Shown here one piece after another: positions 475-20,868 of a stretch of DNA of 29,051 bases (position 1 is its first letter; each line of letters opens with the position of its first letter). Made by a program: the position numbers and the translations under genes. The notes beneath the pieces are model-generated. The model made no database searches, was not told the origin of the DNA, and was given only the letters and a program-made list of their open reading frames with translations. Source of the stretch: Treponema sp. GTDB taxonomy: Bacteria > Spirochaetota > Spirochaetia > Treponematales > Breznakiellaceae. The stretch lies in assembly GCA_031255615.1 (NCBI GenBank), contig JAIRSD010000221.1, positions 1-29,051 of the forward strand, read 5' to 3'.

Positions 475-1767
475 ATGTATGGTTCCTTCTCCCTCCGGCA
501 ATGCTTTTTCGTCCTTGTTTTTACGGCGGTCCTCTCTTTGCCCGCTGCGGCCCAGGATATTTCTACTGCCGGGGGCCCGGAGGGGCGGGGCGGAAACCTA
601 ACGCTCAAGATCGCGATCATGGGGCCCGGGGATGAACTGTACTTTTGGTGGGGGCATATCGGCCTGGTGATCGAAGATTCCCTGACCGGCCGGGCGGGGT
701 TTTACGATTACGGCATCTTTTCTTTTGACAGTGAAAATTTCTACCTCAATTTTGCCATGGGGAGGCTCTACTACCGCTGCGGGGTTTCCCCGGCGGAGAT
801 GAATTACCAGGTATACACCCAGGCCAACCGGGATATTACCCTTTATACCCTGGACCTTCCCCCGGAAACCAGGGAGGAGATTCGGCGTTTTGCGGAGTTC
901 AACGTACTCCCGGAAAACCGCAACTACTACTATCATCATTTCAAGGATAATTGCGCCACCCGGATACGGGACATTCTGGATCTCGCCACGGCGGGCCAGT
1001 TTCGGGAGGCCTTCGGCGAAGCCCCCAGCCCCTTTACCCTGCGGCAGCAGGTAAGGCGGCATACCTGGTTTTCTCCTTTTATGGACTGGCTTCTCAACTT
1101 CCTCATGGGGCAGGATATTGACGTTCCCATCACCGCCTGGGAAGAGATGTTTCTGCCCCAGGCTATTGGGGATTATATGCTGGATTTTTCTTATACCGAT
1201 GTCCGGGGGCGGGAACGGAATCTGGTGTCCGGCGTTGAAATCCTGAATCGGGCGGTGGACCGTCCGCCGGTATTGGCAAAGCCCCGCCGCCAGTGGATTC
1301 GGGAATTGGCCTTCGGCCTTCTTGCCGCGGCTCTTCTGGCCCTCCTCCGGTTTTACAAGAAAAGCCGCCGGGGCTTCGAGGCCCTTTGGGGCGCGGTCCA
1401 GGGGGCCCTGGGGATCTTTTTCGGCGGCATCGGGACGGTCCTTGCCTTTATGACCTTCTTTTCCGACCATGATTATACATGGCATAACATTAACGTGCTG
1501 TACGTTAATCCCCTTTGGTTTGCCGCCGCGGCGTGGGGCGTCCGTTTTGCCCGCGCCCCCGATCCGGGAAAACGGGATGCCCTGGAATCCCGTTTGAAGC
1601 ATTTCTGGACCGCGGTCTTCGTCCTCTGTTTTTTGACCATGCCGGTAAAACTTTTACCCTTTTTTTATCAGCAGAACCAGGTAACCCAGGCTCTTCTCCT
1701 GCCCATTGCCTTTGTCCTTGGCTGGTTCCCCGATTGGGTTTTGGCTTTGAAAAAACGGATAACCTAA
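475..1767 (+). CDS. DUF4105 (Lnb N-terminal-like) membrane protein
   Basis: The 430-residue product starts with a signal peptide (cleavage likely after AAA in LPAAAQD). The next 200 residues carry DUF4105 hallmarks: WWGHIGLVI, YDYGIFSFDS, NFYLNFAMGRLYYRCGV and YYYHHFKDNCATRIRD. The conserved H and the NC pair in these motifs are typical of this family, related to the lacto-N-biosidase N-terminal region. The catalytic role of most members is unproven. The C-terminal 160 residues form about five membrane segments, starting at roughly 275, 312, 345, 378 and 405. The protein is therefore probably an envelope enzyme with its N-domain in the periplasm. It is first in a three-gene run, ten bases ahead of the next gene. 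Family assignment is good; function is unknown. Confidence 0.85.
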   Translation: MYGSFSLRQCFFVLVFTAVLSLPAAAQDISTAGGPEGRGGNLTLKIAIMGPGDELYFWWGHIGLVIEDSLTGRAGFYDYGIFSFDSENFYLNFAMGRLYYRCGVSPAEMNYQVYTQANRDITLYTLDLPPETREEIRRFAEFNVLPENRNYYYHHFKDNCATRIRDILDLATAGQFREAFGEAPSPFTLRQQVRRHTWFSPFMDWLLNFLMGQDIDVPITAWEEMFLPQAIGDYMLDFSYTDVRGRERNLVSGVEILNRAVDRPPVLAKPRRQWIRELAFGLLAAALLALLRFYKKSRRGFEALWGAVQGALGIFFGGIGTVLAFMTFFSDHDYTWHNINVLYVNPLWFAAAAWGVRFARAPDPGKRDALESRLKHFWTAVFVLCFLTMPVKLLPFFYQQNQVTQALLLPIAFVLGWFPDWVLALKKRIT

Positions 1768-3859: not shown

Positions 3860-5103
3860 CGAATAACGGGACGGATTTCCGGTCTATCCTGACTCTCGAT
3901 TCGGAGATGAATCAGATTCAGGATGTGGATTTACTTTTAGAGCGAATCCTCCTGGAAGCCCGAAGGGTAGTCCATGCCGACGCGGGGTCGATTTATGTAA
4001 GGGGCCGGGTCAGGGAAAGGGATGTGGAGAAGCTGGTCATCAAGTATGCCCAGAACGACACCGTCCAAAAAAGACTGCCCGAAGGCCAAAAGATGATCTA
4101 TTCCGTGTTTTCCATTCCCATCGACGATAAGTCCGTAGCGGGCTACTGCGCCCTTACCCGGAAACTTATCAACGTCCCCGATATGTACCAGATTCCGGAA
4201 GGCACCCCCTATTCCTTTAACCCCGTCTACGACAGTATTTCAGGCTACAGGACCATTTCTTCCCTTACCGTTCCCCTTACCACCGTGGATTCAAGGATCC
4301 TGGGGGTCATTCAGGTTATCAATTCTAAAGACAAGAACGGCGCCGTGGTCCCCTTTTCCGCGGATGATGAATTCCTTATCACCCACTTCGCCTCCAACGC
4401 CACCACCGTCCTGCATCGGGCCTGCATGACCCGGGCCATGATTCTTCGGATGATCAAAATGTCCGAGCTTCGGGACCCGATGGAAACGGGGACCCATGTA
4501 AACCGGGTTGCCGGCTATGCGGTGGAGATCTACGAACGCTGGGCCTACCGCCATGGGGTAGAAAGCACGGAGCGGGAAAAATTCCGGGATACACTCAGAG
4601 TTGCGGCGATGCTGCACGATGTGGGCAAGGTGGCGATTTCCGATTTGATTCTGAACAAACCCGCCCGGTTTACCCCGGAGGAATACCGGATCATGCAGCA
4701 TCATACGGTTTACGGGGCCGCCCTGTTTGACGATTCCCAGTCCGAACTGGACGATATTTGCCGGGACATCGCCTTGACCCATCACGAAAACTGGGACGGA
4801 TCGGGATACCCCGGCTGGGTCGATCCGGTAACCGAGGAACCAATCAAGGCCGGACCCGACGGAAGGCCCCTGGGCAGGGTAGGGGAGGAGATTCCCTTGA
4901 CGGGGCGGATCGTGGCAATCGCCGATGTCTACGACGCCCTTAGTTCAAAACGGGTGTATAAGAATTCGTGGAACGAGGAAGATGTGCTGTTGGAGATCCG
5001 CAAACTTTCGGGGAGCAAATTCGATCCCGAACTGGTGGATATTTTTTTTGAAATCATTTCGAATATCAAGCAGATCCATGCCCTGTACCCGGAGGCGGAT
5101 TGA
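3856..5103 (+). CDS. GAF plus HD-GYP domain protein, probable cyclic-di-GMP phosphodiesterase
   Basis: Residues about 20-195 form a GAF-like sensor domain (DVDLLLERILLEARRVVHADAGSIY; SLTVPL; GVIQVINSK). Residues about 210-400 form an HD-GYP phosphodiesterase domain with the metal-binding HD at 254-255 (LHDVGKVA), HHENWDGSGYP at 309-319 including the GYP triad, and IVAIADVYDAL. These residues predict hydrolysis of cyclic di-GMP. A short insertion of about 20 residues (region GWVDPVTEEPIKAGPDGRP) follows GYP before the next helix. No membrane segment is seen. The start overlaps ppiC by four bases. The 3' end overlaps the convergent UPF0178 gene by 38 bases. The signal sensed by the GAF domain cannot be told from sequence. 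Confidence 0.93.
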   Translation: MTNNGTDFRSILTLDSEMNQIQDVDLLLERILLEARRVVHADAGSIYVRGRVRERDVEKLVIKYAQNDTVQKRLPEGQKMIYSVFSIPIDDKSVAGYCALTRKLINVPDMYQIPEGTPYSFNPVYDSISGYRTISSLTVPLTTVDSRILGVIQVINSKDKNGAVVPFSADDEFLITHFASNATTVLHRACMTRAMILRMIKMSELRDPMETGTHVNRVAGYAVEIYERWAYRHGVESTEREKFRDTLRVAAMLHDVGKVAISDLILNKPARFTPEEYRIMQHHTVYGAALFDDSQSELDDICRDIALTHHENWDGSGYPGWVDPVTEEPIKAGPDGRPLGRVGEEIPLTGRIVAIADVYDALSSKRVYKNSWNEEDVLLEIRKLSGSKFDPELVDIFFEIISNIKQIHALYPEAD

Positions 5104-5542
5104 GTTTGGCGAGAATCCGGTCTAAACTGTCCGCCATGGCCTTGAGTTCCTTCCTGCCGTAAACGGCGATCCGTTCCGGCCCCAAGCCCGAATCCGCCAG
5201 ATTCACCATGAAATTCCGCAGGGAAAGCCGTTCCCGGATATTCTCCCCGGTGTAGACCCTTCCCCGATCGTCCAGCACGTAAACCCCCCTTTTTACCAGG
5301 CGTTCCGCCAGAGGTATATCCCTGGTAACTACCAGGTCCCCCGCCAGGGCCAGGGCCGCGATGCGGTCGTCCGCGGCCCCTTCGCCGGGGGGGCAGCGCT
5401 CCATGATCGCGTTCGGGCCCTCCACGCCCGGAATGGGGCGGTTGGCCGCGAAAACGGCGGTAAGACCCCGGCGGCCGGCGGTTCTGAGTACCAGTTCCCG
5501 GGCGGGCCGGGGGCAGGAGTCCGCGTCTACCAGGATCTTCAT
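5066..5542 (-). CDS. UPF0178 (YaiI/YqxD, DUF188) family protein
   Basis: The 158-residue product starts MKILVDADSCPRPARELV, followed by GAADDRIAALALAGDLVVTRDIPLA and KRGVYVLDDRGRVYT. These are the signature segments of the UPF0178 family, a PIN-like fold with acidic residues D7, D9 and the ADD and TRD motifs. The biochemical role is not established. The ATG overlaps the last base of the zapA-manA stop codon (TGATG), so it is translationally coupled to that gene and probably the last gene of the infC operon. Its 3' end overlaps the convergent HD-GYP gene. Confidence 0.88.
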   Translation of the reverse strand: MKILVDADSCPRPARELVLRTAGRRGLTAVFAANRPIPGVEGPNAIMERCPPGEGAADDRIAALALAGDLVVTRDIPLAERLVKRGVYVLDDRGRVYTGENIRERLSLRNFMVNLADSGLGPERIAVYGRKELKAMADSLDRILAKLNPPPGTGHGSA

Positions 5543-7128
5543 CAGGGGAGGCCGGGGCTGTAGGACCCGTAAGAGGGGGAGGCCGTTGAAAGGGGGAGCG
5601 ACGCGGCGTACAGGGTGTAATCCCCCCCCAGGGTAAGCCGGGATTCCGGGGGGATAAAGGCCGACTCCCCCTGCTTAAGCTCCCATTCGGCGTCTCCGCT
5701 GCCGGAGACCTGGAGCCGGCCCCGGGTAACCGCGACGACGGCCGGCCCCCGGAGGGGGAAGGGGCCCTTGAAAGATTCAGCTATCGAAAGGCAAAATTCT
5801 TTGCAGTGGCTGGGGTAGCTAAAGATGCCGGAAAAACCGGATGCCGCGGCCGATTCCGGGGCTTTGAGCAATTCCGGCACAAAGGGGCTGAAAAAGAGGA
5901 CCTTCATAAGTTCGTTCTGGTCTATATGTTTGGAACTAAGACCGCCCCGGAGTACATTATCGGAATTGGCCATTAGTTCGACGCCGAAGCCTTCCACGTA
6001 GGCGTGGAGAATCCCCGGGGGGAGGTAGATCGCCTGGCCGTTTTCCAGATGTATCAGATTAAGGTAAAGGGGAGAAAGGATTCCCGGATCTCCGGGATAA
6101 AATTCCGCGAAAGACCGGATAAGGGCCCCAAGTTCCCGGTCAAAGTTCGGCGGAAGGGAGGCGGAGAGGACAAAATTTGTCAACTCCGTCCTGATATCCG
6201 GGGGAATCGCGAAAAGGTTCTTGAAAAAAGACCGCAGGGCGGAGGAGTCCTCCTCCGTATCCGCCAGGGATCGCCAAAGGGGGGCAAAGCCGTTCCGGAG
6301 GGAGGGGGGGGCGTTGGCAAAGAACAGGGAAACGAGGGACCGTATATCGGCGGGGGGGCGGAAGCCGCAGAGGGCGGTAAAGGGGCTTAGGGCGCAGATG
6401 ATCTCCGGTTTATGATTGTCGTCCCGGTAGTTCCGTTCCGGGGCATCCAGGGGGACGCCCTGTTCGTTTTCCCGCAGCCATCCCTGCCGGGCCTGTTCCT
6501 TTCCGGGGTGGGCCTGGATGGAAAGGGGCCGGGATGCGGCAAGGAACTTGAACAGGAAGGGGAGGGTCCTGGATTCCGCCCATTCCTCCCCCAGATACCG
6601 CGGAGGATCGGCGGCGATAAACTGGTCCAGGCTTTTCTCCATGCCCTCGGCTGCCAGCATCGAGGGCGACGCCGGATGCGCGCCCATCCAAAGTTCCGCC
6701 CAAGGCTCCCCTCCGGGATTGGGCATGCCGAGCATGCGGGGTATCCAGAGGGGGGAGCCCCATTGATAATGTTTTACCGGATTTTTTAAGGGGTAGAACC
6801 CCCTATCGACGGGGAAAGGATCCTTCCCGATGGTTTCATCAAGCCGGGCAATAAGATTGAGGGTGCGCCGCAGGGTTTCCTCCTTTTCCGTCCCGGAGGA
6901 GTCTTCCCCTTTTTTTCGATCCTCCCCGGCCTTCCAGAGTTCGTCGCAGAGCGAATACCCGGTGAGGACGGCAATTTTCAGGGGATCCTTAAGACCGGTG
7001 GACTGGCGTATGGATTCCACCTTGTCCCGGTAATCGGCCAACAGTTTTTCTAAATAGGATGGATCCTCATCAACGGTGATGTTAATGGAAGTCCCCAGAA
7101 TTTCCAGACACAGGCTGCTTTGCGGCAT
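5542..7128 (-). CDS. manA: ZapA-like domain fused to class I mannose-6-phosphate isomerase
   Basis: The single 528-codon frame has two parts. Residues about 5-100 read as ZapA, the FtsZ-ring protein: CLEILGTSINITVDEDPSYLEKLL, then PLKIAVLTGYSLCDELWK and a charged C-terminal helix ending RLDETI. Residues about 110-528 are a complete type I phosphomannose isomerase, which interconverts mannose 6-phosphate and fructose 6-phosphate: FYPLKNPVKHYQWG, zinc ligands Q205 and H207 (LSIQAHPGKEQ), E242 (NHKPEI), H375 (PPGILHAY) and the NSDNVLRGGL arginine. The joint is only about eight residues and holds no in-frame ATG, GTG or TTG, so separate translation is not obvious. The upstream gene is ZapB-like, which supports the ZapA reading. 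A sequencing frameshift joining two genes is the main alternative. Confidence 0.87.
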   Translation of the reverse strand: MPQSSLCLEILGTSINITVDEDPSYLEKLLADYRDKVESIRQSTGLKDPLKIAVLTGYSLCDELWKAGEDRKKGEDSSGTEKEETLRRTLNLIARLDETIGKDPFPVDRGFYPLKNPVKHYQWGSPLWIPRMLGMPNPGGEPWAELWMGAHPASPSMLAAEGMEKSLDQFIAADPPRYLGEEWAESRTLPFLFKFLAASRPLSIQAHPGKEQARQGWLRENEQGVPLDAPERNYRDDNHKPEIICALSPFTALCGFRPPADIRSLVSLFFANAPPSLRNGFAPLWRSLADTEEDSSALRSFFKNLFAIPPDIRTELTNFVLSASLPPNFDRELGALIRSFAEFYPGDPGILSPLYLNLIHLENGQAIYLPPGILHAYVEGFGVELMANSDNVLRGGLSSKHIDQNELMKVLFFSPFVPELLKAPESAAASGFSGIFSYPSHCKEFCLSIAESFKGPFPLRGPAVVAVTRGRLQVSGSGDAEWELKQGESAFIPPESRLTLGGDYTLYAASLPLSTASPSYGSYSPGLP

Positions 7129-7201
7129 AACGATCCTACACCCCCGCGGCTTGCTGACCGCTTGTACAATCGTACAGGAAACGAATCTTCATGCTGCCGG
7201 A

Positions 7202-7693
7202 CTAAAAAATATCAAGCTCTCCGGTGTCCGGATTGTCCGCGGAGGGAGCATCTTCTTCATCGGAAGGAGAAAGCTCCCATTCTTCCGGGGCCTGATCGAC
7301 TGGATCCCCGGCCTGCGCTTCGGATTCGACGGAGGAGAGGACGCCCTCCGGTTCCTCCGCCGGAACATCGAGGCCGGCCCGTGAACCGGCCCTCTGCTTT
7401 TCCGTTTGGTTCTTCCGGGGGGGAGAAGGCCTGGAAAGCGCGGGATCGGCGATGCTTTTTTCTATGGCGTCTTCAAATTTGTTCAATCGATCCAGGGCGG
7501 CAAGGATTCCCTCTTCGATTCGGCCCTGATCTTCCCGAAATTTCTGGATTAAAACCTCAAGTTCATCGATCCTTTTTTGATACGAGTCAAGTTTCCCCTG
7601 TAATTGGGCATTTTCCCGGGAAATTCGATCCACGTATTCAATGGTCCGAACTACTTTTGTCTCCAGCAGTTTGACCTGCTCCAAGGTAACCAT
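7202..7693 (-). CDS. ZapB-like coiled-coil protein, probable cell-division factor
   Basis: The 163-residue product has a continuous heptad-rich coiled coil over residues about 1-85 (VTLEQVKLLETKVVRTIEY, then RENAQLQGKLDSYQKRIDEL). An acidic, proline-rich, apparently disordered tail ends in GELDIF. A short N-terminal coiled coil directly upstream of a ZapA domain is the usual arrangement for ZapB-type proteins, which bridge the Z ring. The assignment is by architecture and context, not by strong sequence identity. It starts 18 bases after the rplT stop, with AAGGGGG as ribosome site. A 73-base gap separates it from the fusion gene. Confidence 0.7.
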   Translation of the reverse strand: MVTLEQVKLLETKVVRTIEYVDRISRENAQLQGKLDSYQKRIDELEVLIQKFREDQGRIEEGILAALDRLNKFEDAIEKSIADPALSRPSPPRKNQTEKQRAGSRAGLDVPAEEPEGVLSSVESEAQAGDPVDQAPEEWELSPSDEEDAPSADNPDTGELDIF

Positions 7694-7711: not shown

Positions 7712-8074
7712 TTAAACAGATTGAACAGCCGATTTTGCCTGGGCCGCTACCGCCTTAAAGGCCTCCGCATCATGCACCGCCAAGTAGGCAAGGGCCTTCC
7801 GGTCAATTTTTATTTCCGCCCTTGAAAGACCGTTTATCAACCGGGAATAGGTAATCCCCTCCGCCCGGCAGGCGGCGTTTATCCTGATGATCCAGATTCG
7901 CCGAAAATCGCCCTTCCGATCCCGCCGGTCCCGGTAGGCGTAAAAAAGACCCTTGGTAACCGCGTCTTTGGCGGTCTTGTAATTCGAATGTCTGCGGCCC
8001 CAGTAACCTTTGGCCTGTTTTAAAATCTGTTTACGGTGATTTTTCCGTTTGGGGCCGTCTACCGCTCGTGGCAT
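7712..8074 (-). CDS. rplT: 50S ribosomal protein L20
   Basis: The 120-residue product is typical of L20 in sequence and length: [57 protein letters not shown] and YSRLINGL. L20 binds 23S rRNA early in 50S assembly and in some bacteria represses its own operon. An AAGGAGAGAG site sits just before the ATG. It is third after infC and rpmI, the order conserved across bacteria, and leads into the cell-division genes. A 72-base gap separates it from rpmI. Confidence 0.98.
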
Positions 8075-8146: not shown

Positions 8147-8347
8147 TCAACCGTAGGGCATCAACTGCTTTCTGATAACCTTTACGTTGTCGCTGGAAAG
8201 AATGCCGCTGTGGCGGAGATTCCGCTTTCGTTTGGCCGCCTTCTTGGTAAGGATATGCCGGAGGTTCTGTTTTTTATACTTAACCTTGCCGCTTCCCGTA
8301 AAGGAATACCGTTTGGCCGCGCTTTTCTTGGTCTTCATCTTGGGCAT
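8147..8347 (-). CDS. rpmI: 50S ribosomal protein L35
   Basis: The 66-residue basic product has the full L35 pattern: [20 protein letters not shown], then the [17 protein letters not shown] core and the IRKQLMPYG end. Size and order between infC and rplT are the norm. It begins 16 bases after the infC stop. Confidence 0.98.
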
Positions 8348-8363
8348 GTTACCGCTCCGTATG

Positions 8364-8882
8364 TTATTTTTTGGACTTGGGGCTTAGCACCATGGACATA
8401 AACCGTCCTTCCATGGCCGGCGGTTTATCCATCACATAATCCCCTTCCACCCGGGCCAAAACATCCTTAAGGACATCCAACCCCAATTCGGTGTGGGCAA
8501 GTTCGCGGCCCCGAAAACGGACCGTTACCTTGACCTTATTCCCTTCCCCCAAAAATTCCCGCACATGCTTGGATTTGAAATCCAGATCATGGTCGTCAAT
8601 CTTCGGCTGCATCCGAATTTCCTTCAGCTTGAGCAGCTTCTGCCTTCTCTTGGAATCCCGGACCTTCTTCTCGTTTTCGAATTTAAATTTGCCGTAATCC
8701 ATGATTTTGACTACCGGCGGGTTAGCCTGGGGGGCCACTTCTACCAGATCAAGGCCGACGCCCCTGGCAATATTAAGGGCATCCAGGGTACTCATAATCC
8801 CCTGCTGTTCCCCCTCATCGCGGATAAGGCGTACCTCCCTTACCCGGATCTGTTCGTTTGTCCTTAAATCCTTATCCGACAA
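8364..8882 (-). CDS. infC: translation initiation factor IF-3
   Basis: The product carries both IF-3 domains: the N-domain ([38 protein letters not shown]), the linker helix and the C-domain ([29 protein letters not shown]). IF-3 keeps the 30S subunit free and proofreads the start codon. I place the start at a TTG (172 residues) because GGAGGAGGT lies just upstream at normal spacing. A further in-frame TTG at 8909 would read through that ribosome site and looks wrong. A non-ATG start is usual for infC and allows IF-3 to limit its own synthesis. It is the first gene of the operon. Confidence 0.96.
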
Positions 8883-8930
8883 CTGACCTCCTCCACCTCT
8901 ATTGAACAAGAGGGACGGTTATAGGAAGTT

Positions 8931-8960
8931 ATTTTATCAGATTAGGTTCTCCCTTGTCTA
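8931..8960 (-). promoter_or_regulatory. candidate promoter of the infC operon
   Basis: On the minus strand TAGACA (8955-8960) and TAAAAT (8931-8936) each match 5 of 6 sigma70 consensus positions and are 18 bases apart. The leader to the TTG at 8882 would be about 42 bases, too short for a long L20-type regulatory leader ahead of infC. Confidence 0.6.
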
Positions 8961-11703: not shown

Positions 11704-14346
11704 ATGTGTTTTCCCTTGGGGCTTTTCCATAGTTTTAGCGCGGGGGAGGGTCGTCTTAGCGTTAGAAGACAAGGCGGGCCTTTGGCCCTCTGTTTGGCCC
11801 TCCTGATCTGCGGGGTCCCGCTCCTCCAGGCCCGGGAGGTGGCCGTTACTGTTCTGGACGGGGATCTGGAGATCCCCCTGGAAGGGGCGGAAATTCGTTC
11901 TTTTGACGGGAATCTTTACCAGGGGGACGGGGAGGGGAAGGTTTTATTAACGGTCCCCGACGACCGGGCGGTGACGGTTCAGGGCCTTTATCCGGGTTAC
12001 ACGACGGGGCGGCTGCTTATTGAACCGGGGAGGGACGCATACACCCTGGAGCTTAGCCTCGCCGGGCTTCTGGAAACCGGGGGGCTGGTCCTGGAGGAAA
12101 GCCGGATGGAGGAATCCGGGGGCAGGGCGGGCCGGAGCGTGGTTTTAGAGGAGAGGGAGATCCGCCGCACCGGGGAAATTGGTATTATCGAGGATGTGAT
12201 GACCTCGGTTAAACTGCTTCCGGGGGTTGGGTATTCGGGGCTTTTCAACGCCATGCCCAGCATCAGGGGAGGGCAGCCGGGGGATCTGACGGCCGCCATG
12301 AACGGTTTTTATATCGAGAATCCCTACCACTGGGGCGGGGGATTCTCGATCTTCGATCCGAAAATGGTCGAAAACGCCCGGCTTTCCCACGGGGTCTTTT
12401 CCACCCGTTACGGCCATACTATTTCCGGGCTCCTTGACATTACGGTGAAAAAGCCTTCCGCCAGGGATATGGAATATGAGGCGGGGGTTTCCACCAGCGC
12501 GGCAAACGTCAACCTTTCCTTCCCCCTCGGCGCGAAGGGCGGGGTGATGGCTATGGGAAAGGTGACCTACTACGATCCCGTGATCTGGCTTTTTCAGGGA
12601 ATATCCAGGGCGGCGGACCTGGAGGTCCTGAAGCCGGTGGAGGCGATCTCCACCGCCCCCTACATCCGCAGTACCGCCTTGACCGCCAATTACCGTTTCA
12701 CCGACGCTCTGGAAATGGGTTTTACCGGATTCTTCGGGGCCGACGGGGCGGCGGCGGATTACCGGGGAAACGGGGAGGGCCCCGCGGAGGGGAGTACGAG
12801 CGATATGGAGATGGCGGGGAGCTGGATCAACTACCAGGGATTCGGCCTGGCGGATCTTACCTTTAATCCCCGGAACGATATGGTTTTTAAGGCGGGCCTG
12901 GGAACCGGTTACAGCCGGACCGAAATGGACGGCCGCATGGTCTATTCGGTAAGGGATATTCCCTTTAACGGGGCGAAGTATCTCGACGGGACTCCGATTA
13001 CCGGGACCTTTGATTTTTATGACCGGGAGCTGGTTTTTTCATCCTCCGATTCTGTCAATGTCCAGGGAAGGGCGGATGTTGACTGGGACCTGGGCCGCGG
13101 TTTCCTGGCCGCCATGGGAATCCAGGAATTCTACTCCCGGCAGGGGGCGGAGACCAGCCTTTCCATCCGCTCGGAGCTGCCGAGTTCCGTCTATGCCTTT
13201 ACCCATCCCGGCTACGTTCGACGCACCGACTATGTAAATTATTACCGTCCCTATATGGTGGATGGGGAAGACAGCGATAGTTTGACCAGTTCCGGTTATA
13301 TCCTGGGAGAATACAAAAGCCCCGGCGGCCGTTTTGGAGCGGAGCTGGGCTTTCGGCTGGATCACTGGTACTTTGCGGGGGACGGTTTTTCCGCCGCCGG
13401 GGAGCCCGCGTTTTCCCCCCGGCTCAACCTGGATGTTGTGGTTCTGGAACACCGGGGGCCCTTCAATTCCGTATCCCTTACCGCGGGGACGGGGCTTTTT
13501 TCCTCGGCCAACAATGTGTTTTCCACCCTGCGGGGCAGCGATATGAACGGTGATTTTGCCCTTAAGCCAAACCGGTCTTTTACCAGCCTGGGAGGGGTTA
13601 AGGCGGAATTGTCCCAGGGTATAAGCATCGATATAGAAGGATACTACAAGCATGTTTTTGACCGGACCTATGTGTTTGTAAGCGCCGATTCCCTCCAGCG
13701 GCATTTCAATTTTAACGGGGAAGGGCGGATTTGGGGGTTTGATATACTGCTGAAAAAATCCCGGGGCCGTTATCTGGACGGTTGGATAAGCTATTCGTTT
13801 AACAGCGCCGAATACCGGGAACCGGATGTCCCCGGCAATCCCAATCTGTTCTACAGCGTTACCAACTCGGTTTCCAATGATTGGTACTATCCTTCTTTCC
13901 ACCGTTTTCACGTCCTTAATCTGATTCTTAATGTCAGGCCCCGGGAAAATTTCGCCCTTACCGCCCGATTCGGCCTTGCCAGCGGGGTTCCCCTTTCCAC
14001 CGTGGTGACGGGCAGGCAGCCCTATTCGGTGGAAGTGCTGGATGAACTCGGAAATTCGATCAATGTCATCCAGAAGTGGAAACAGCTTGTCGCCAGGGAT
14101 AATAGCAATAGGGTTTCCGTTTCCATTCCCATGGATATTAAATTTTCGATTTTTAATTATAAAACCAACGGCAAGGCCCATCAGGAATTTTATGTGGCGA
14201 TAGAAAATGTTCTTTCCCTGGTCCACACTCCCAAGGGGAATACCACCTTCAACCCCTATACCGGGGAGGAGAATATGGGGAGTATGGCGGCGTCCTATGA
14301 CATTCCCGTGCCGGTCCCGTCCTTTGGTTTTAAGTGGAGTTACTAA
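11704..14346 (+). CDS. TonB-dependent receptor-like outer-membrane protein
   Basis: This 880-residue protein has a signal segment (GGPLALCLALLICGVPLLQA, cleavage near REV). A carboxypeptidase-regulatory-like beta domain follows (about 40-115: VAVTVLDGDLEIPLEGAEI, GYTTGRLLIEPG), then a plug domain (about 150-260: PGVGYSGLFNAMPSIRGGQ, AAMNGFYIENPYHWGG, FSTRYGHTISGLLDI). The remaining 600 residues alternate aromatic and polar residues as a 22-strand barrel does and end in FGFKWSY, a typical aromatic C-terminus. It should bind a substrate outside and import it using TonB. The substrate is unknown. The energising genes exbB, exbD and tonB lie downstream. The start has no ribosome site, consistent with a leaderless message; a downstream start is not excluded. 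Confidence 0.9.
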   Translation: MCFPLGLFHSFSAGEGRLSVRRQGGPLALCLALLICGVPLLQAREVAVTVLDGDLEIPLEGAEIRSFDGNLYQGDGEGKVLLTVPDDRAVTVQGLYPGYTTGRLLIEPGRDAYTLELSLAGLLETGGLVLEESRMEESGGRAGRSVVLEEREIRRTGEIGIIEDVMTSVKLLPGVGYSGLFNAMPSIRGGQPGDLTAAMNGFYIENPYHWGGGFSIFDPKMVENARLSHGVFSTRYGHTISGLLDITVKKPSARDMEYEAGVSTSAANVNLSFPLGAKGGVMAMGKVTYYDPVIWLFQGISRAADLEVLKPVEAISTAPYIRSTALTANYRFTDALEMGFTGFFGADGAAADYRGNGEGPAEGSTSDMEMAGSWINYQGFGLADLTFNPRNDMVFKAGLGTGYSRTEMDGRMVYSVRDIPFNGAKYLDGTPITGTFDFYDRELVFSSSDSVNVQGRADVDWDLGRGFLAAMGIQEFYSRQGAETSLSIRSELPSSVYAFTHPGYVRRTDYVNYYRPYMVDGEDSDSLTSSGYILGEYKSPGGRFGAELGFRLDHWYFAGDGFSAAGEPAFSPRLNLDVVVLEHRGPFNSVSLTAGTGLFSSANNVFSTLRGSDMNGDFALKPNRSFTSLGGVKAELSQGISIDIEGYYKHVFDRTYVFVSADSLQRHFNFNGEGRIWGFDILLKKSRGRYLDGWISYSFNSAEYREPDVPGNPNLFYSVTNSVSNDWYYPSFHRFHVLNLILNVRPRENFALTARFGLASGVPLSTVVTGRQPYSVEVLDELGNSINVIQKWKQLVARDNSNRVSVSIPMDIKFSIFNYKTNGKAHQEFYVAIENVLSLVHTPKGNTTFNPYTGEENMGSMAASYDIPVPVPSFGFKWSY

Positions 14347-14348
14347 AC

Positions 14349-15212
14349 ATGAGCTCTTTATTGCCGGTCCGCCCGGCGGCGGTGGCGGCGGCGTCCGCGG
14401 TGCTGCTGCTCTTTTCCGGCTGCCTGTCGGCGGCGGAAGGGGCGGGGAAGTTCCTGGAAAGAAGGTTTGATCGTCCGGCACGCCGGTACCGCAGCCCCCA
14501 ATCGGTCCCCCGGGGCCGGGGATACCAGGTTCTGGAGCGGGCGGACGGGGGCGGGCTTGATATCCTTATTGAGGCGGTTCCGGCTGTTACCCTGAAGGCA
14601 TCCCCGCCGGAAAGGGGCGGGGCCTTCTCCCTGAGGTCCCTGGAATACCTGGGGGGAAATTCCCTGGGCTGGGTGGAATTCAGCATGGCCCTGTCGGGCG
14701 GGGGGTCCTTTATCCCCCGGGGCGGCGGCGACTTTGATCTGCGCCTTAGCCTCTCCCCGGAACCGGGGCCGATCACCGGGGGGGAGATCAAGCGGGAGGG
14801 AACCAGGCTTTTCGGGGAGGACGCCCTGCGGGCCCTTCATAACCGTTACGAGCGGATCCAGGCCCTGGCCGAATGGATGGGGGGGCAGGACGCGCCGCGG
14901 GAGGCCGCCGGCGGGCTTGAGGATTTCGACGCCTACTGGAAGGTCCTGCTTCTGCCCGAACTGGTTCCCGCGAAAAAACGGCCCCCCGCTTATAGCGCTG
15001 CACCGGACGGCCCCTGGGCAACGGCGGAACAGGTCAGGTGGCATACCGCATATACGGAAGGGATACTGCCGGAAGAACTGCGGCCTCTGCGGGATTCGGG
15101 GACTCTGAAACGGGATTGGGAAGAAAGCCGCGACTGGATCTTCCTGGTCTACGCCTGGGATCGTATTTTTTCCGCCCTGGAAGCGCCGGCCGCGGTGCTG
15201 CAAAGAAAATAG
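14349..15212 (+). CDS. lipoprotein of unknown function in the TonB operon
   Basis: The 287-residue product starts with a lipoprotein signal (VAAASAVLLLFSGC, lipidated Cys at 25). It has a glycine-rich beta-like middle (VEFSMALSGGGSF, FDLRLSLSPEPG) and a helical, Trp-rich C-terminal half (YERIQALAEWMGG, EESRDWIFLVYAWDRIF). I do not recognise the family. TGGAG lies nine bases before this ATG; an in-frame ATG 15 bases upstream overlaps the receptor stop and is less likely. Its place between receptor and ExbB suggests a receptor partner or substrate-binding surface protein; this is inferred from position. Confidence 0.75.
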   Translation: MSSLLPVRPAAVAAASAVLLLFSGCLSAAEGAGKFLERRFDRPARRYRSPQSVPRGRGYQVLERADGGGLDILIEAVPAVTLKASPPERGGAFSLRSLEYLGGNSLGWVEFSMALSGGGSFIPRGGGDFDLRLSLSPEPGPITGGEIKREGTRLFGEDALRALHNRYERIQALAEWMGGQDAPREAAGGLEDFDAYWKVLLLPELVPAKKRPPAYSAAPDGPWATAEQVRWHTAYTEGILPEELRPLRDSGTLKRDWEESRDWIFLVYAWDRIFSALEAPAAVLQRK

Positions 15213-15216
15213 GGTT

Positions 15217-15297
15217 GTTCGGAAACTGAAGTTTCCGAACGGCGGCCGTATAAAAATGGACTTGCTTAATAAGCGGCCGGGGTTATTGAACGGGTCC
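15217..15297 (-). repeat. composite family C-D repeat, copy 1
   Basis: A perfect 10 bp stem GTTCGGAAAC-TGAA-GTTTCCGAAC (15217-15240) is followed 17 bases later by an inverted family C hairpin (15258-15297, GGACTTGCTTAATAA ... TTATTGAACGGGTCC). Read on the minus strand, C precedes D, the same order as at 28616-28741. The pair sits inside the TonB operon, between the lipoprotein gene and exbB. Without a T tract it is not a normal terminator, but it could process or attenuate the message. Confidence 0.75.
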
Positions 15298-15332
15298 GAT
15301 GAAAGCCCCAAAGGGCAAAGGAAGACGCAGCG

Positions 15333-16010
15333 ATGGAGACCAATTCTTTTTCCCTGCTGGAGCTGTTTCGTATGGGGGGGGTGTTCATGTGGCCCCTCCT
15401 TTTATTCTCCGTGGCGGTGATCGCCATTTCTCTGGAGCGGGCTGTTTACCTGGGCTACCATAATCTGCGGATGGACGATCTGGGGGCGGCCCTTTCCGCC
15501 TATATCAAGGAGGGGGATCTGGACCAGGGCCGGGAATATTTGGGGCCCCTGATAAAACGACGCATGGGGGCCCGGATACTCCTTACCCTCATTGACCGGG
15601 CCAGTCTGGGGGAACACCGTATGGAACGGGCGGTGGAAACCCAGGCCCTTTCCTGCGTAAATTCCCTGGAGAACGGCCTTAACTTCCTTACCGCCCTGGG
15701 TTCCCTTTCCCCCTTAACGGGGTTTCTGGGGACCGTTTCGGGGATGATTGGGGCCTTTAAATCCATCGCCGAGGCTACGGAGGTAAACGCCCAGATCGTG
15801 GCAAACGGCATCTACGAGGCCCTGATTACCACGGTCTTCGGCCTTATCATCGCCATTATTGCCATGGTCTTCCATTCGATTTTTTCCCATATCGTGGATA
15901 AATTCTCGGCGGATGTTGAGCAGGTCTGTTCCGAGCTGATCACCGAGATGACGGTCCCCCGGACCTTGCGGGGCCAATTCCGGGAAATGCGGATCCACGA
16001 TGACCATTAG
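15333..16010 (+). CDS. exbB: ExbB/TolQ/MotA-type proton channel subunit
   Basis: The 225-residue product has the ExbB layout. One N-terminal membrane helix (about 14-35, GGVFMWPLLLFSVAVIAISLE) is followed by a cytoplasmic loop. Two further helices start about 118 and 155, carrying the conserved GSLSPLTGFLGTVSGMIGAF and EALITTVFGLIIAIIAM motifs. It forms the inner-membrane channel that converts proton flow into TonB motion. GGAAG precedes the ATG. It overlaps exbD by 11 bases. Gene order with receptor and tonB favours ExbB over TolQ or MotA. Confidence 0.93.
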   Translation: METNSFSLLELFRMGGVFMWPLLLFSVAVIAISLERAVYLGYHNLRMDDLGAALSAYIKEGDLDQGREYLGPLIKRRMGARILLTLIDRASLGEHRMERAVETQALSCVNSLENGLNFLTALGSLSPLTGFLGTVSGMIGAFKSIAEATEVNAQIVANGIYEALITTVFGLIIAIIAMVFHSIFSHIVDKFSADVEQVCSELITEMTVPRTLRGQFREMRIHDDH

Positions 16011-16410
16011 GCAGCGAAAGAGAAGGGGCATCGGAGAGTCCGGGGCTTCCAGCGATCTCGCCTTCCTTCTTATCGTTTACTTTATCGTGATTGCGGGGTT
16101 TAACGTCAACAAGGGTTTTCTTTTAACCCTGCCGGCCAAGGATTCCCAGCGGGTCATACAGCAGAATGAACTGCTGCGTTTCAGCCTGGACAGCGGGGGA
16201 ACCATTTTTTTCCAGGGGGCCCCCTGCGATTTTCCCGCCGCGGAACGGGAGATCCGCGCCAAGCTGGCTTCTTATCCCAACACGGCCCTGCTCCTTACCG
16301 TGGATCCCCAAAGTCCCTGGCAGGCCCTGGTCTCCTTTGTGGAACTAGCCCAGGATCTTGAGGTAGATTCTTTTTCCTTTGTCATGGCGCCGTCGGGGGA
16401 GAATCCATGA
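16000..16410 (+). CDS. exbD: ExbD/TolR-type protein, first copy
   Basis: The 136-residue product has a basic N-terminus (TIRQRKRRG) and one membrane helix with the required acidic residue in SSDLAFLLIVYFIVIAGF. A periplasmic domain ends in FVELAQDLEVDSFSFV, typical of ExbD. ExbD helices carry the proton-accepting Asp inside the ExbB pentamer. It overlaps exbB by 11 bases and is followed by a second, diverged exbD. The two may form a heterodimer; that is an inference. Confidence 0.9.
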   Translation: MTIRQRKRRGIGESGASSDLAFLLIVYFIVIAGFNVNKGFLLTLPAKDSQRVIQQNELLRFSLDSGGTIFFQGAPCDFPAAEREIRAKLASYPNTALLLTVDPQSPWQALVSFVELAQDLEVDSFSFVMAPSGENP

Positions 16411-16436
16411 AATTCCGCCGGGGGGAACCTTCGTGA
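16407..16436 (+). other. possible nine-codon leader ORF between the two exbD genes
   Basis: ATGA at 16407 overlaps the first exbD stop. It opens a frame encoding MKFRRGEPS that ends in a TGA overlapping the GTG start of the second exbD (GTGA). The peptide start resembles the MKLRRR start of that gene. It may be a stop-start coupling relay or a remnant of an older start codon. Confidence 0.3.
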
Positions 16437-16855
16437 AGCTGCGCCGCAGGATACAAAAAGATTTTGTGATCCCCCTTTCTTCCATGTCCGACGTTGCCTT
16501 CCTCCTCCTTATCTTTATCATGCTGGTTTCCCTTATCAATTACCGGCAGGAGGTAAAGATTGAATATCCGGAGGCCCGAAGGGCCCTGCGGACCAGCGCG
16601 GAAAAGAACCTGGAAGTCTGGGTTGACCGGGAAGGCCGGTTGTATCTGGACGGTACGGCGGGGGATCTCCGGGATCTGGAGGACGCGGTGGCGGAGATAT
16701 ACCGTTCCGCCCCGGATACCCAGATCCACATCATCGCCGACAGGAATACCCCCTACATCCATGTCAACCAGGTTATCACCGCCCTCCAGATTCTCCAGTA
16801 TCGGGTGGTAAGTTTTGTGGTGAAAGACGGGCCGGGAAGAGGGGATGATGAATAG
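16433..16855 (+). CDS. exbD: ExbD/TolR-type protein, second copy
   Basis: I place the start at the GTG (140 residues, MKLRRRIQKDFVIPLSSMSD), preceded by GGGGGAA at normal spacing. A longer frame from 16379 would add residues translated from within the first exbD. The membrane helix holds the key Asp in SMSDVAFLLLIFIMLV. The periplasmic domain has IHIIADRNTPYIHVNQVI, a standard ExbD motif. It is clearly related to the first copy but much diverged. The 3' end overlaps tonB by 11 bases. Confidence 0.92.
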   Translation: MKLRRRIQKDFVIPLSSMSDVAFLLLIFIMLVSLINYRQEVKIEYPEARRALRTSAEKNLEVWVDREGRLYLDGTAGDLRDLEDAVAEIYRSAPDTQIHIIADRNTPYIHVNQVITALQILQYRVVSFVVKDGPGRGDDE

Positions 16856-17501
16856 GCTGCGGATTCTCCTTGTCGTCCTGGTTGCCGCGGCCCATGGTTT
16901 GGCGATTCTTTATATCAGCTTTGACGCGGGGCGGGCCGCCGGGGAGACGGAGGAAAGGGCCCGTGTAATGAAACTTATCGATATTGCCGAGTATATTCCC
17001 CCGCCCCCCGCGGCTCTTCCTCCCCCTCCGCCCCAGGAAGCGCCGCCGCCGGATAACGCGGTGGAAGCCATCGCGGAGGAGATGATTGAGTCCGCGGAGG
17101 AGCCGGAAAATCAAACCCTGGTGGAGGCCGGCAGCATAACGGCCCCCCCGTTGTCAGGACCTTCCGGGCAGGAGGAGGAATACCTTCCCGCCCATAAAAT
17201 TTCCGTGCTCCCCGAATTTCCCAACGCGGCGATTCTGGCGGCCCTTAAGTATCCCCCCATCGCGAAACGTTCCAACATCGAAGGACGGGTGATACTGGAT
17301 CTGTTTATCGACCGGGCGGGGATCGTCCGGCAGATAGATATACTGCGGGAGGATCCCCCCAACCGGGGATTCGGGGACGCCGCGGCGGCGGCCGTTCGGG
17401 AGGCCCTCAGGAATCCGGGGAATCGCTGCAAACCGGCCCTGGCCAACGGGGAACCGGTCTCCGCCCGGGTCCGCTATCCGGTCAGCTTCCGGCTGAGGTA
17501 G
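16845..17501 (+). CDS. tonB: TonB energy-transducing protein
   Basis: The 218-residue product has an N-terminal membrane anchor (LRILLVVLVAAAHGLAILYI), a proline-rich spacer (EYIPPPPAALPPPPPQEA), an acidic linker and a C-terminal TonB domain. That domain shows LKYPPIAKRSNIEGRVILDL, VRQIDILREDPPNRGFGDAA and VSARVRYPVSFRLR. The YPP...A...I.G.V pattern is diagnostic. It spans the periplasm and contacts the receptor. The short proline region suggests a modest periplasmic reach. It overlaps the second exbD by 11 bases and is the last gene of the operon. The alternative ATG one codon on is equally plausible. Confidence 0.93.
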   Translation: MMNRLRILLVVLVAAAHGLAILYISFDAGRAAGETEERARVMKLIDIAEYIPPPPAALPPPPPQEAPPPDNAVEAIAEEMIESAEEPENQTLVEAGSITAPPLSGPSGQEEEYLPAHKISVLPEFPNAAILAALKYPPIAKRSNIEGRVILDLFIDRAGIVRQIDILREDPPNRGFGDAAAAAVREALRNPGNRCKPALANGEPVSARVRYPVSFRLR

Positions 17502-20205: not shown

Positions 20206-20868
20206 CTAATTTCCGGCTTCGGGGATGCCGGCCAACAGGTGGTAGACCTCCGAAGGTTCCCCGGCGTTCAGGATGGAAGACCGTAATTGGGAATTCTTGA
20301 GCCGGGAACTGAAAAAGGAAAGGGTCTGGAGATAGTAGGCGTGCTGGTTGTAGGCGGCGGCGATCATGATGACCAGCCGCACCGGTTCGTCGTCCAGGGT
20401 TTGAAAATCGACGATGTCCGTCCTGCTGACTCCCACGGAAACCACCAGGTCGGTTACTGAAGAAAGCCGTACATGGGGGATGGCGATGCCCCTGCCGATG
20501 GCGGTGCTCATCAGTTCATCCCGGTTCAGAATTTCCATGATGAGTTCCTGGCGGTTCTTCACCTGGGGGCAGGCGGCAAGGTTTTCCGCCAGGGCGATAA
20601 GTACGTCCCGCTTGGCCTGCCGCTCGACAAAGAGAATCCGATCCGGCGAAAGAAGCCGGGCCACCGGGATTTGAAACATCGGGGGCCGCTGTTCCGCCGG
20701 AAGCCGGTCGTTAATCCAGCGTTCGATGTCTGTTTTTTTAAAACGCCAGGCCGTACCTATTTTACCCGCCGGGATTTCCCCCCTTTGCACCCATTCGTAT
20801 ACGGTGCGTTCGGAAACCCGCAGGTGCTTAGCAACTTCCTCTAATGTTAGAATATCGTTGCTTAACAT
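20206..20868 (-). CDS. excisionase-type HTH fused to a PTS IIA (fructose/PtsN-type) domain
   Basis: Residues about 5-55 are a small winged-helix domain of the excisionase/MerR class (LTLEEVAKHLRVSERTVYEW, IGTAWRFKKTDIERWI). Residues about 70-215 are a PTS EIIA-type domain with the phosphorylatable His at 132 (GRGIAIPHVRL). No EIIB or EIIC is present. This architecture occurs in spirochaetes and is thought to link PTS phosphorylation state to transcription. The target genes are not known; the adjacent symporter is a candidate. The ATG has no ribosome site, but a promoter -10 box lies six bases upstream. Confidence 0.9.
   Translation of the reverse strand: MLSNDILTLEEVAKHLRVSERTVYEWVQRGEIPAGKIGTAWRFKKTDIERWINDRLPAEQRPPMFQIPVARLLSPDRILFVERQAKRDVLIALAENLAACPQVKNRQELIMEILNRDELMSTAIGRGIAIPHVRLSSVTDLVVSVGVSRTDIVDFQTLDDEPVRLVIMIAAAYNQHAYYLQTLSFFSSRLKNSQLRSSILNAGEPSEVYHLLAGIPEAGN

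Follow-up and report, generated by a model that had tools for sequence, protein, structure and literature searches.

In a stretch of Treponema sp. DNA of 29,051 nucleotides (contig JAIRSD010000221.1; this whole stretch, as analysed, is what I call the window), the genes for the cell-division protein ZapA and the mannose-6-phosphate isomerase ManA run on as a single reading frame, and the product is a real two-domain protein, ZapA-ManA, rather than an assembly error. The fusion is made by a group of termite-gut spirochaetes and, as reconstructed from their sequences, it is one that arose several times from adjoining zapA and manA genes. The protein is probably bifunctional, with ZapA on FtsZ carrying the isomerase to the Z ring, a reading in which I infer the recruitment, the activity and the benefit. 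The features on which the argument draws are the following:

5066..5542, minus strand: yaiI/yqxD-like gene (DUF188), its start sharing one base with the stop of the fusion (TGATG)
5542..7128, minus strand: zapA::manA fusion gene, 528 amino acids, stop included (open reading frame and domain matches)
5545..6792, minus strand: class I mannose-6-phosphate isomerase domain, residues 113-528 (profile and sequence/structure matches)
6793..6828, minus strand: flexible link, approximately residues 101-112, without ATG, GTG or TTG (dip in pLDDT and codon scan)
6829..7128, minus strand: ZapA domain, residues 1-100
7134..7137, minus strand: AGGA, Shine-Dalgarno-like, 5 bases before the fusion ATG (from the upstream sequence; putative role)
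7202..7693, minus strand: zapB-like gene (coiled coil; PF06005), 73 bases upstream of the fusion
7712..8074, minus strand: open reading frame, presumably rplT (ribosomal protein L20)
8147..8347, minus strand: open reading frame, presumably rpmI (ribosomal protein L35)
8364..8909, minus strand: open reading frame, presumably infC (translation initiation factor IF-3)
8931..8960, minus strand: weak sigma-70-like promoter match upstream of infC (10/12, TG before the second hexamer)

The 528-codon frame at 5542-7128 on the minus strand is exact and free of internal stops. An earlier note, made from the letters of the window, had read a ZapA-like N-terminus (residues about 5-100) and a complete ManA in it, and profile searches bear out both: in Pfam, PF05164 (ZapA) matches residues 8-85 with 40 bits against a curated cut-off of 23.8 (E 5e-10) and PMI_typeI_cat matches residues 113-258 with 107.8 bits against 22 (E 7e-31), and in NCBIfam, TIGR00218 (manA) covers residues 113-503 with 214.3 bits against 116.2. 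The narrow PRK15131-type ManA model NF011710 gives 281.3 bits, below its cut-off of 571. Among solved structures, the Salmonella isomerases are closest in sequence (218 bits over residues 113-495), and the match to the solved ZapA 2mmv is weak (E 0.14); in the predicted model of the fusion, the ZapA fold of two strands, a helix and a long helix is present, and the ZapA part is, on that model, ZapA-like in fold. Titles of Salmonella mutant structures name K86, H99, K132, E134, H255, E264 and R274, which map on a sequence alignment to K194, H207, K240, E242, H375, E384 and R394 of the fusion, and all of these active-site residues are invariant, together with Q205 (which I take to be a zinc ligand), in an alignment of 118 fused proteins. 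The isomerase part is thus predicted to be a working zinc-dependent class I enzyme.

Between the two domains the model has a link of low confidence, roughly residues 100-111 (pLDDT under 50 at 102-105), slightly longer than the eight residues given in the earlier note, whose statement that it holds no internal start codon stands. Before residue 160, in-frame ATG, GTG or TTG occurs in the window's gene at codons 1, 30, 37, 132, 135, 148 and 157, and an in-frame scan of codons 38-131 found none, so that a separate isomerase cannot start with such codons near its first strand, at residue 112. The link lacks methionine in 92 of 118 fused proteins. Could the protein nevertheless be cut after translation, leaving free ZapA and free ManA in the cell? 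A link of low model confidence that varies in length and letters would suit such cutting, but not one invariant column was found within the link in the alignment of the 118 fused proteins, and it would be strange for fusion to recur if a protease were then needed to regain the separate products; I consider this explanation very improbable.

That a base error, an assembly error or a frameshift artefact joined two genes is refuted by independent sequences and deserves practically no credence, since the identical architecture recurs, across the junction, in related genomes: among the best 120 of 7,739 matches, both domains are present in 118 by my own HMMs and in 116 by precomputed Pfam annotation (read by eye), and the fusion is found again in 22 loci of 21 genomes, including within a contig of 3,855,671 bases (genome G087). 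The 120 listed relatives were ranked by full length, which favours fused proteins, and they are left out of the frequencies given below. Treponema sp., Spirochaetia bacterium and Leadbettera azotonutricia, the last placed in Breznakiellaceae by NCBI, are the organisms named among them. Where the listed fused proteins carry a name, it is nearly always mannose-6-phosphate isomerase, otherwise hypothetical protein and never ZapA, and name-based surveys would therefore score ZapA as missing in these genomes.

For frequencies, 80 loci were kept from a first contig search, 39 of which show both zapA and manA, 8 of them fused and 31 separate. In the GTDB family of a genome of the window's clade (G001), 168 of 195 genomes match, and the best listed matches yield 147 family loci from 145 of these 168 (with contig-start matches in G027, G029 and G412 left out): 22 are fused (21 genomes), 113 have zapA directly before manA and 12 are without ZapA in the stretch. 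Among 21 genomes of the order beyond the family, 6 give a strong isomerase match (G049, G063, G066, G081, G106 and G117), with isomerase and ZapA on different contigs in each, 7 give partial isomerase matches, none of them beside ZapA, and 8 give none; on this small sample, the adjacency of zapA and manA looks like a feature of the family. A search with the ZapA part (residues 1-100), covering proteins of 0.55-1.75 times the query length and reaching relatives that share exact words with it, returned 26 proteins, every one with PF05164 and PF20511, and ZapA joined to another partner was not seen among those 26. Plasmid records gave 31 matches, none reaching 80% query coverage.

The gene belongs to a cluster that runs infC-rpmI-rplT-zapB-zapA-manA-yaiI. 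The earlier note had called the upstream neighbour ZapB-like, and the gene at 7202-7693 (minus strand) does match PF06005 (ZapB) above the cut-off, with 39.2 bits against 31.5, an assignment weaker than it looks because coiled-coil families overlap; no NCBIfam match was found for it at E 0.001. A zapB-like match adjoins zapA in 173 of 174 loci (a set in which some genes stand twice), the yaiI/yqxD-like gene lies less than 400 bases from manA in 157 of the 161 of these loci that have it, and an rplT query matched in 39 of 41 listed loci, the exceptions, L029 and L031, being also without ZapA. The promoter match upstream of infC is weak, a scan having found 3 sites in the sequence and 1.9 in shuffles. 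Elsewhere in the window, the gene at 475-1767 (plus strand) encodes a protein similar to lipoprotein N-acyltransferase Lnb (140 bits with NF051878, whose cut-off is much higher, at 550), the translated frames at 11704-17501 (plus strand) are apparently a TonB-dependent receptor followed by ExbB/ExbD/TonB-like genes, and the product of 20206-20868 (minus strand) seems to combine a DNA-binding N-terminus of excisionase type with a PTS EIIA-like domain.

What, then, has become of ZapA itself in these genomes? In 21 of 21 fused genomes, searches for ZapA and for the class I isomerase found no match other than the fused frame; G276 has two pieces of match within one frame, and G008 has two zapA-manA copies, both fused. 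The two fused genes in the G008 bin (L103 and L111) differ from one another, perhaps reflecting two strains or a duplication. A tubulin-family (FtsZ) match is present in 18 of the 21, and the others (G008, G015 and G337) are perhaps incomplete bins. Judging from these relatives, the host of the window would likewise have no other copy of ZapA or of the class I isomerase. With no other ZapA found, with a conserved core and with a zapB-like neighbour, the ZapA part presumably still binds FtsZ, and if it does, tethering of the isomerase follows.

The competing thought, that the ZapA part has given up its division role and is now only a head that oligomerises or solubilises ManA, draws on two observations. 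On the tree, fused rows have relatively longer ZapA terminal branches than separate rows do (median log ratio 0.23 vs -0.19; Mann-Whitney p 0.006, uncorrected for kinship), which makes a mild relaxation of the ZapA part possible; however, the ratio of ZapA to ManA length is 2.0 in the window's clade and 1.4, 0.8 and 0.9 in other fused clades, with 1.5 in an unfused sister pair, so that the excess is not cleanly tied to fusion. Furthermore, the hydrophobic-E/Q-hydrophobic motif at the FtsZ N terminus, which E. coli ZapA binds, is seen in 10 of the 18 fused genomes and 56 of the 67 unfused ones that were read in the family (85 of 86 in all), and its E/Q is replaced by V in all five genomes of the window's clade (G001-G004 and G414; L258, L243, L250, L244 and L259). 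A link between fusion and this motif change looked possible on the first 30 loci and was rejected, as unfused genomes from the same half of the tree as the window's clade have a changed motif too. The state of this motif does not settle, either way, the binding of ZapA to FtsZ in the window's host. In three unfused genomes (G006, G007 and G011; L261, L262 and L264), the FtsZ frames extend upstream, and the usual N-terminal motif is not seen in the 45 residues before the core. Against a lost division role stand the ZapA core positions, which are alike between 127 fused and 113 separate rows, with G12, L26 and G57 at 100% in each set, and low dN/dS in four pairs of fused genes (0.17, 0.08, 0.19 and 0.22 for ZapA; 0.26, 0.19, 0.22 and 0.21 for ManA), rough figures as several dS are near or above 1, as well as the lack of any other ZapA match in the fused genomes and the zapB match that still adjoins in all but one of the loci surveyed. 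On balance I regard a lost role as improbable, and prefer a ZapA part that still works in division.

Turning to the origin of the fusion, a FastTree tree of 240 rows requires a minimum of 9 state changes, its fused groups having 47 (the window's), 51 (Leadbettera), 16, 5, 3, 2, 1, 1 and 1 members, and a tree of 136 rows (genomes and the window only) requires a minimum of 6, with fused groups of 6 (the window's), 7, 6, 2, 1 and 1; support is low for some inner branches. A single ancient fusion was considered and rejected: forcing one clade on all 23 fused rows (136 rows, LG+G4) costs 456 log units, with p-AU 7e-5, and joining only the window's clade and the Leadbettera clade, at p-AU 0.057, is not clearly rejected. 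On either tree there are as many fused groups as the minimum of changes (6 and 9), so neither requires separate genes to have been restored. Next to the window's clade stands an unfused sister pair, which includes L005 (the same locus as L086) and suggests how the join came about, most simply by loss of a stop codon: in L005 the zapA TAA directly abuts the manA ATG in the same frame (...CGG TAA ATG AAC...), giving ARLDEALENKSPR, stop, MNAIFKLKNQVKHY in L005, where the window reads ARLDETIGKDPFPVDRGFYPLKNPVKHY. The earlier note had hedged between neighbouring genes of an operon having joined and a tether to the Z ring; the junction in L005 upholds the former, and the tethering would be its natural consequence, which for now we infer.

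These same facts give the neutral explanation its strength, namely that abutting genes were joined as a by-product, both domains functioning as they did before and the position of the enzyme without a role, because both ends can bear an extension, a stop codon occasionally disappears and a lost manA start is hard to undo. A shared frame is found in 24 of 113 separate zapA-manA pairs (below one third), and 20 of these 24 are divided by a single stop codon with the manA frame open right after it; the abutting TAA-ATG of L005 lies in the very sister group of the window's clade; a ratchet would give just the lack of reversion that the trees allow; and link length, as cut in this analysis, spans 10 to 104 residues. 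The stop codons in those 20 unfused pairs are TAA in 14, TAG in 3 and TGA in 3, and readthrough could yield some fusion there; the stretch L005:1330-1700 is an example of a single in-frame zapA stop before an open manA frame. Against this, the neighbouring junctions are never fused across the family loci (zapB-zapA 0 of 134, manA-yaiI 0 of 123), despite 56 and 19 that share a frame, whereas zapA-manA is fused in 22 of 135 (Fisher tests against the two neighbours, p ~2e-7 and ~3e-7, treating related loci as independent); for six independent events all to fall at one named junction of three equal ones has a chance of (1/3)^6, or about 0.001. This bias may in turn reflect tolerance at zapA-manA rather than benefit, and the two unfused junctions could owe their state to selection against those fusions instead of selection for this one. 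I would put the neutral by-product only slightly below an even chance, and compared with a selected fusion it is at least as likely. That repeated fusion in these spirochaetes records selection for keeping a mannose-6-phosphate/fructose-6-phosphate isomerase on the Z ring is a tentative proposal, which I think rather doubtful.

How would a bifunctional ZapA-ManA work? The N-terminal 100 residues would serve the cell as its ZapA, which as a dimer or tetramer would bind FtsZ filaments and cross-link them, and the C-terminal 416 residues would be the zinc-dependent class I isomerase interconverting mannose 6-phosphate and fructose 6-phosphate, hanging by a flexible link from the end of the ZapA helix; with one isomerase for each ZapA molecule, much of the isomerase in the cell would be expected at the Z ring. 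Such a protein would have been formed repeatedly between the abutting zapA and manA genes of the infC-to-yaiI cluster. A motive for tethering can be sought in what the enzyme makes, since fructose 6-phosphate is the substrate of GlmS (as given in the available part of PMC8270655) and ManA of Bacillus subtilis is required for normal rod shape and chromosome segregation (according to the accessible text of PMC2940726), by a mechanism that the portion of PMC8270655 at hand calls uncharacterized. As for cargo at the ZapA C terminus, ZapA-GFP in E. coli forms rings in close to 80% of zapB-deleted cells (PMC12754632, in the part available), which by analogy suggests that it would be tolerated.

Both families are known, and the comparison with their members shows what is shared and what is added. 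With ZapA (PF05164; PDB 4p1m, 1w2e, 2mmv and 9isj) the fusion shares the fold, as modelled, the zapB-like neighbour, the conserved core and the standing of being the only ZapA found in its genomes, but it carries an enzyme at its C terminus and is 12-23% identical to the solved proteins. With class I ManA (TIGR00218; Salmonella 3h1m/2wfp) it shares a match over residues 113-503 and all tested active-site residues (Foldseek E 7e-38), and differs in having a ZapA domain in front and in sitting in a ribosomal-protein/zapB cluster. The ManA of B. subtilis is presumably without a ZapA domain. It is tied to wall building and division timing (PMC2940726 and PMC8270655, as far as their available text goes), and a septal position is not stated in the part of PMC2940726 at hand. 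UgtP of B. subtilis is a metabolic enzyme put at the septum through FtsZ, as the fused isomerase would be, but there the enzyme itself binds and inhibits FtsZ, no fusion being involved (PMC8270655, available portion), and in the E. coli ZapA-GFP reporters, which are artificial, ZapA still takes its attached cargo to the Z ring (PMC12754632, likewise in part). In keeping with the earlier note, which knew of no such fusion, a literature search on titles and abstract openings, most subscription journals lying outside it, found no description of ZapA-ManA, and the joint architecture and its repeated origin appear undescribed in the literature searched.

If the proposal is true, sugar-phosphate supply for envelope synthesis, or its sensing, would be built into the FtsZ cross-linker, and metabolism and cell division would thereby be hard-wired to each other. 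The finding also bears on why B. subtilis cells lose their normal shape without ManA, which the available part of PMC8270655 leaves as an open question. These spirochaetes offer a natural and repeated experiment in which an FtsZ cross-linker has a metabolic enzyme as its cargo, and the fused genes beside their unfused relatives are matched pairs for asking if there is a physical tie between metabolism and the division ring.
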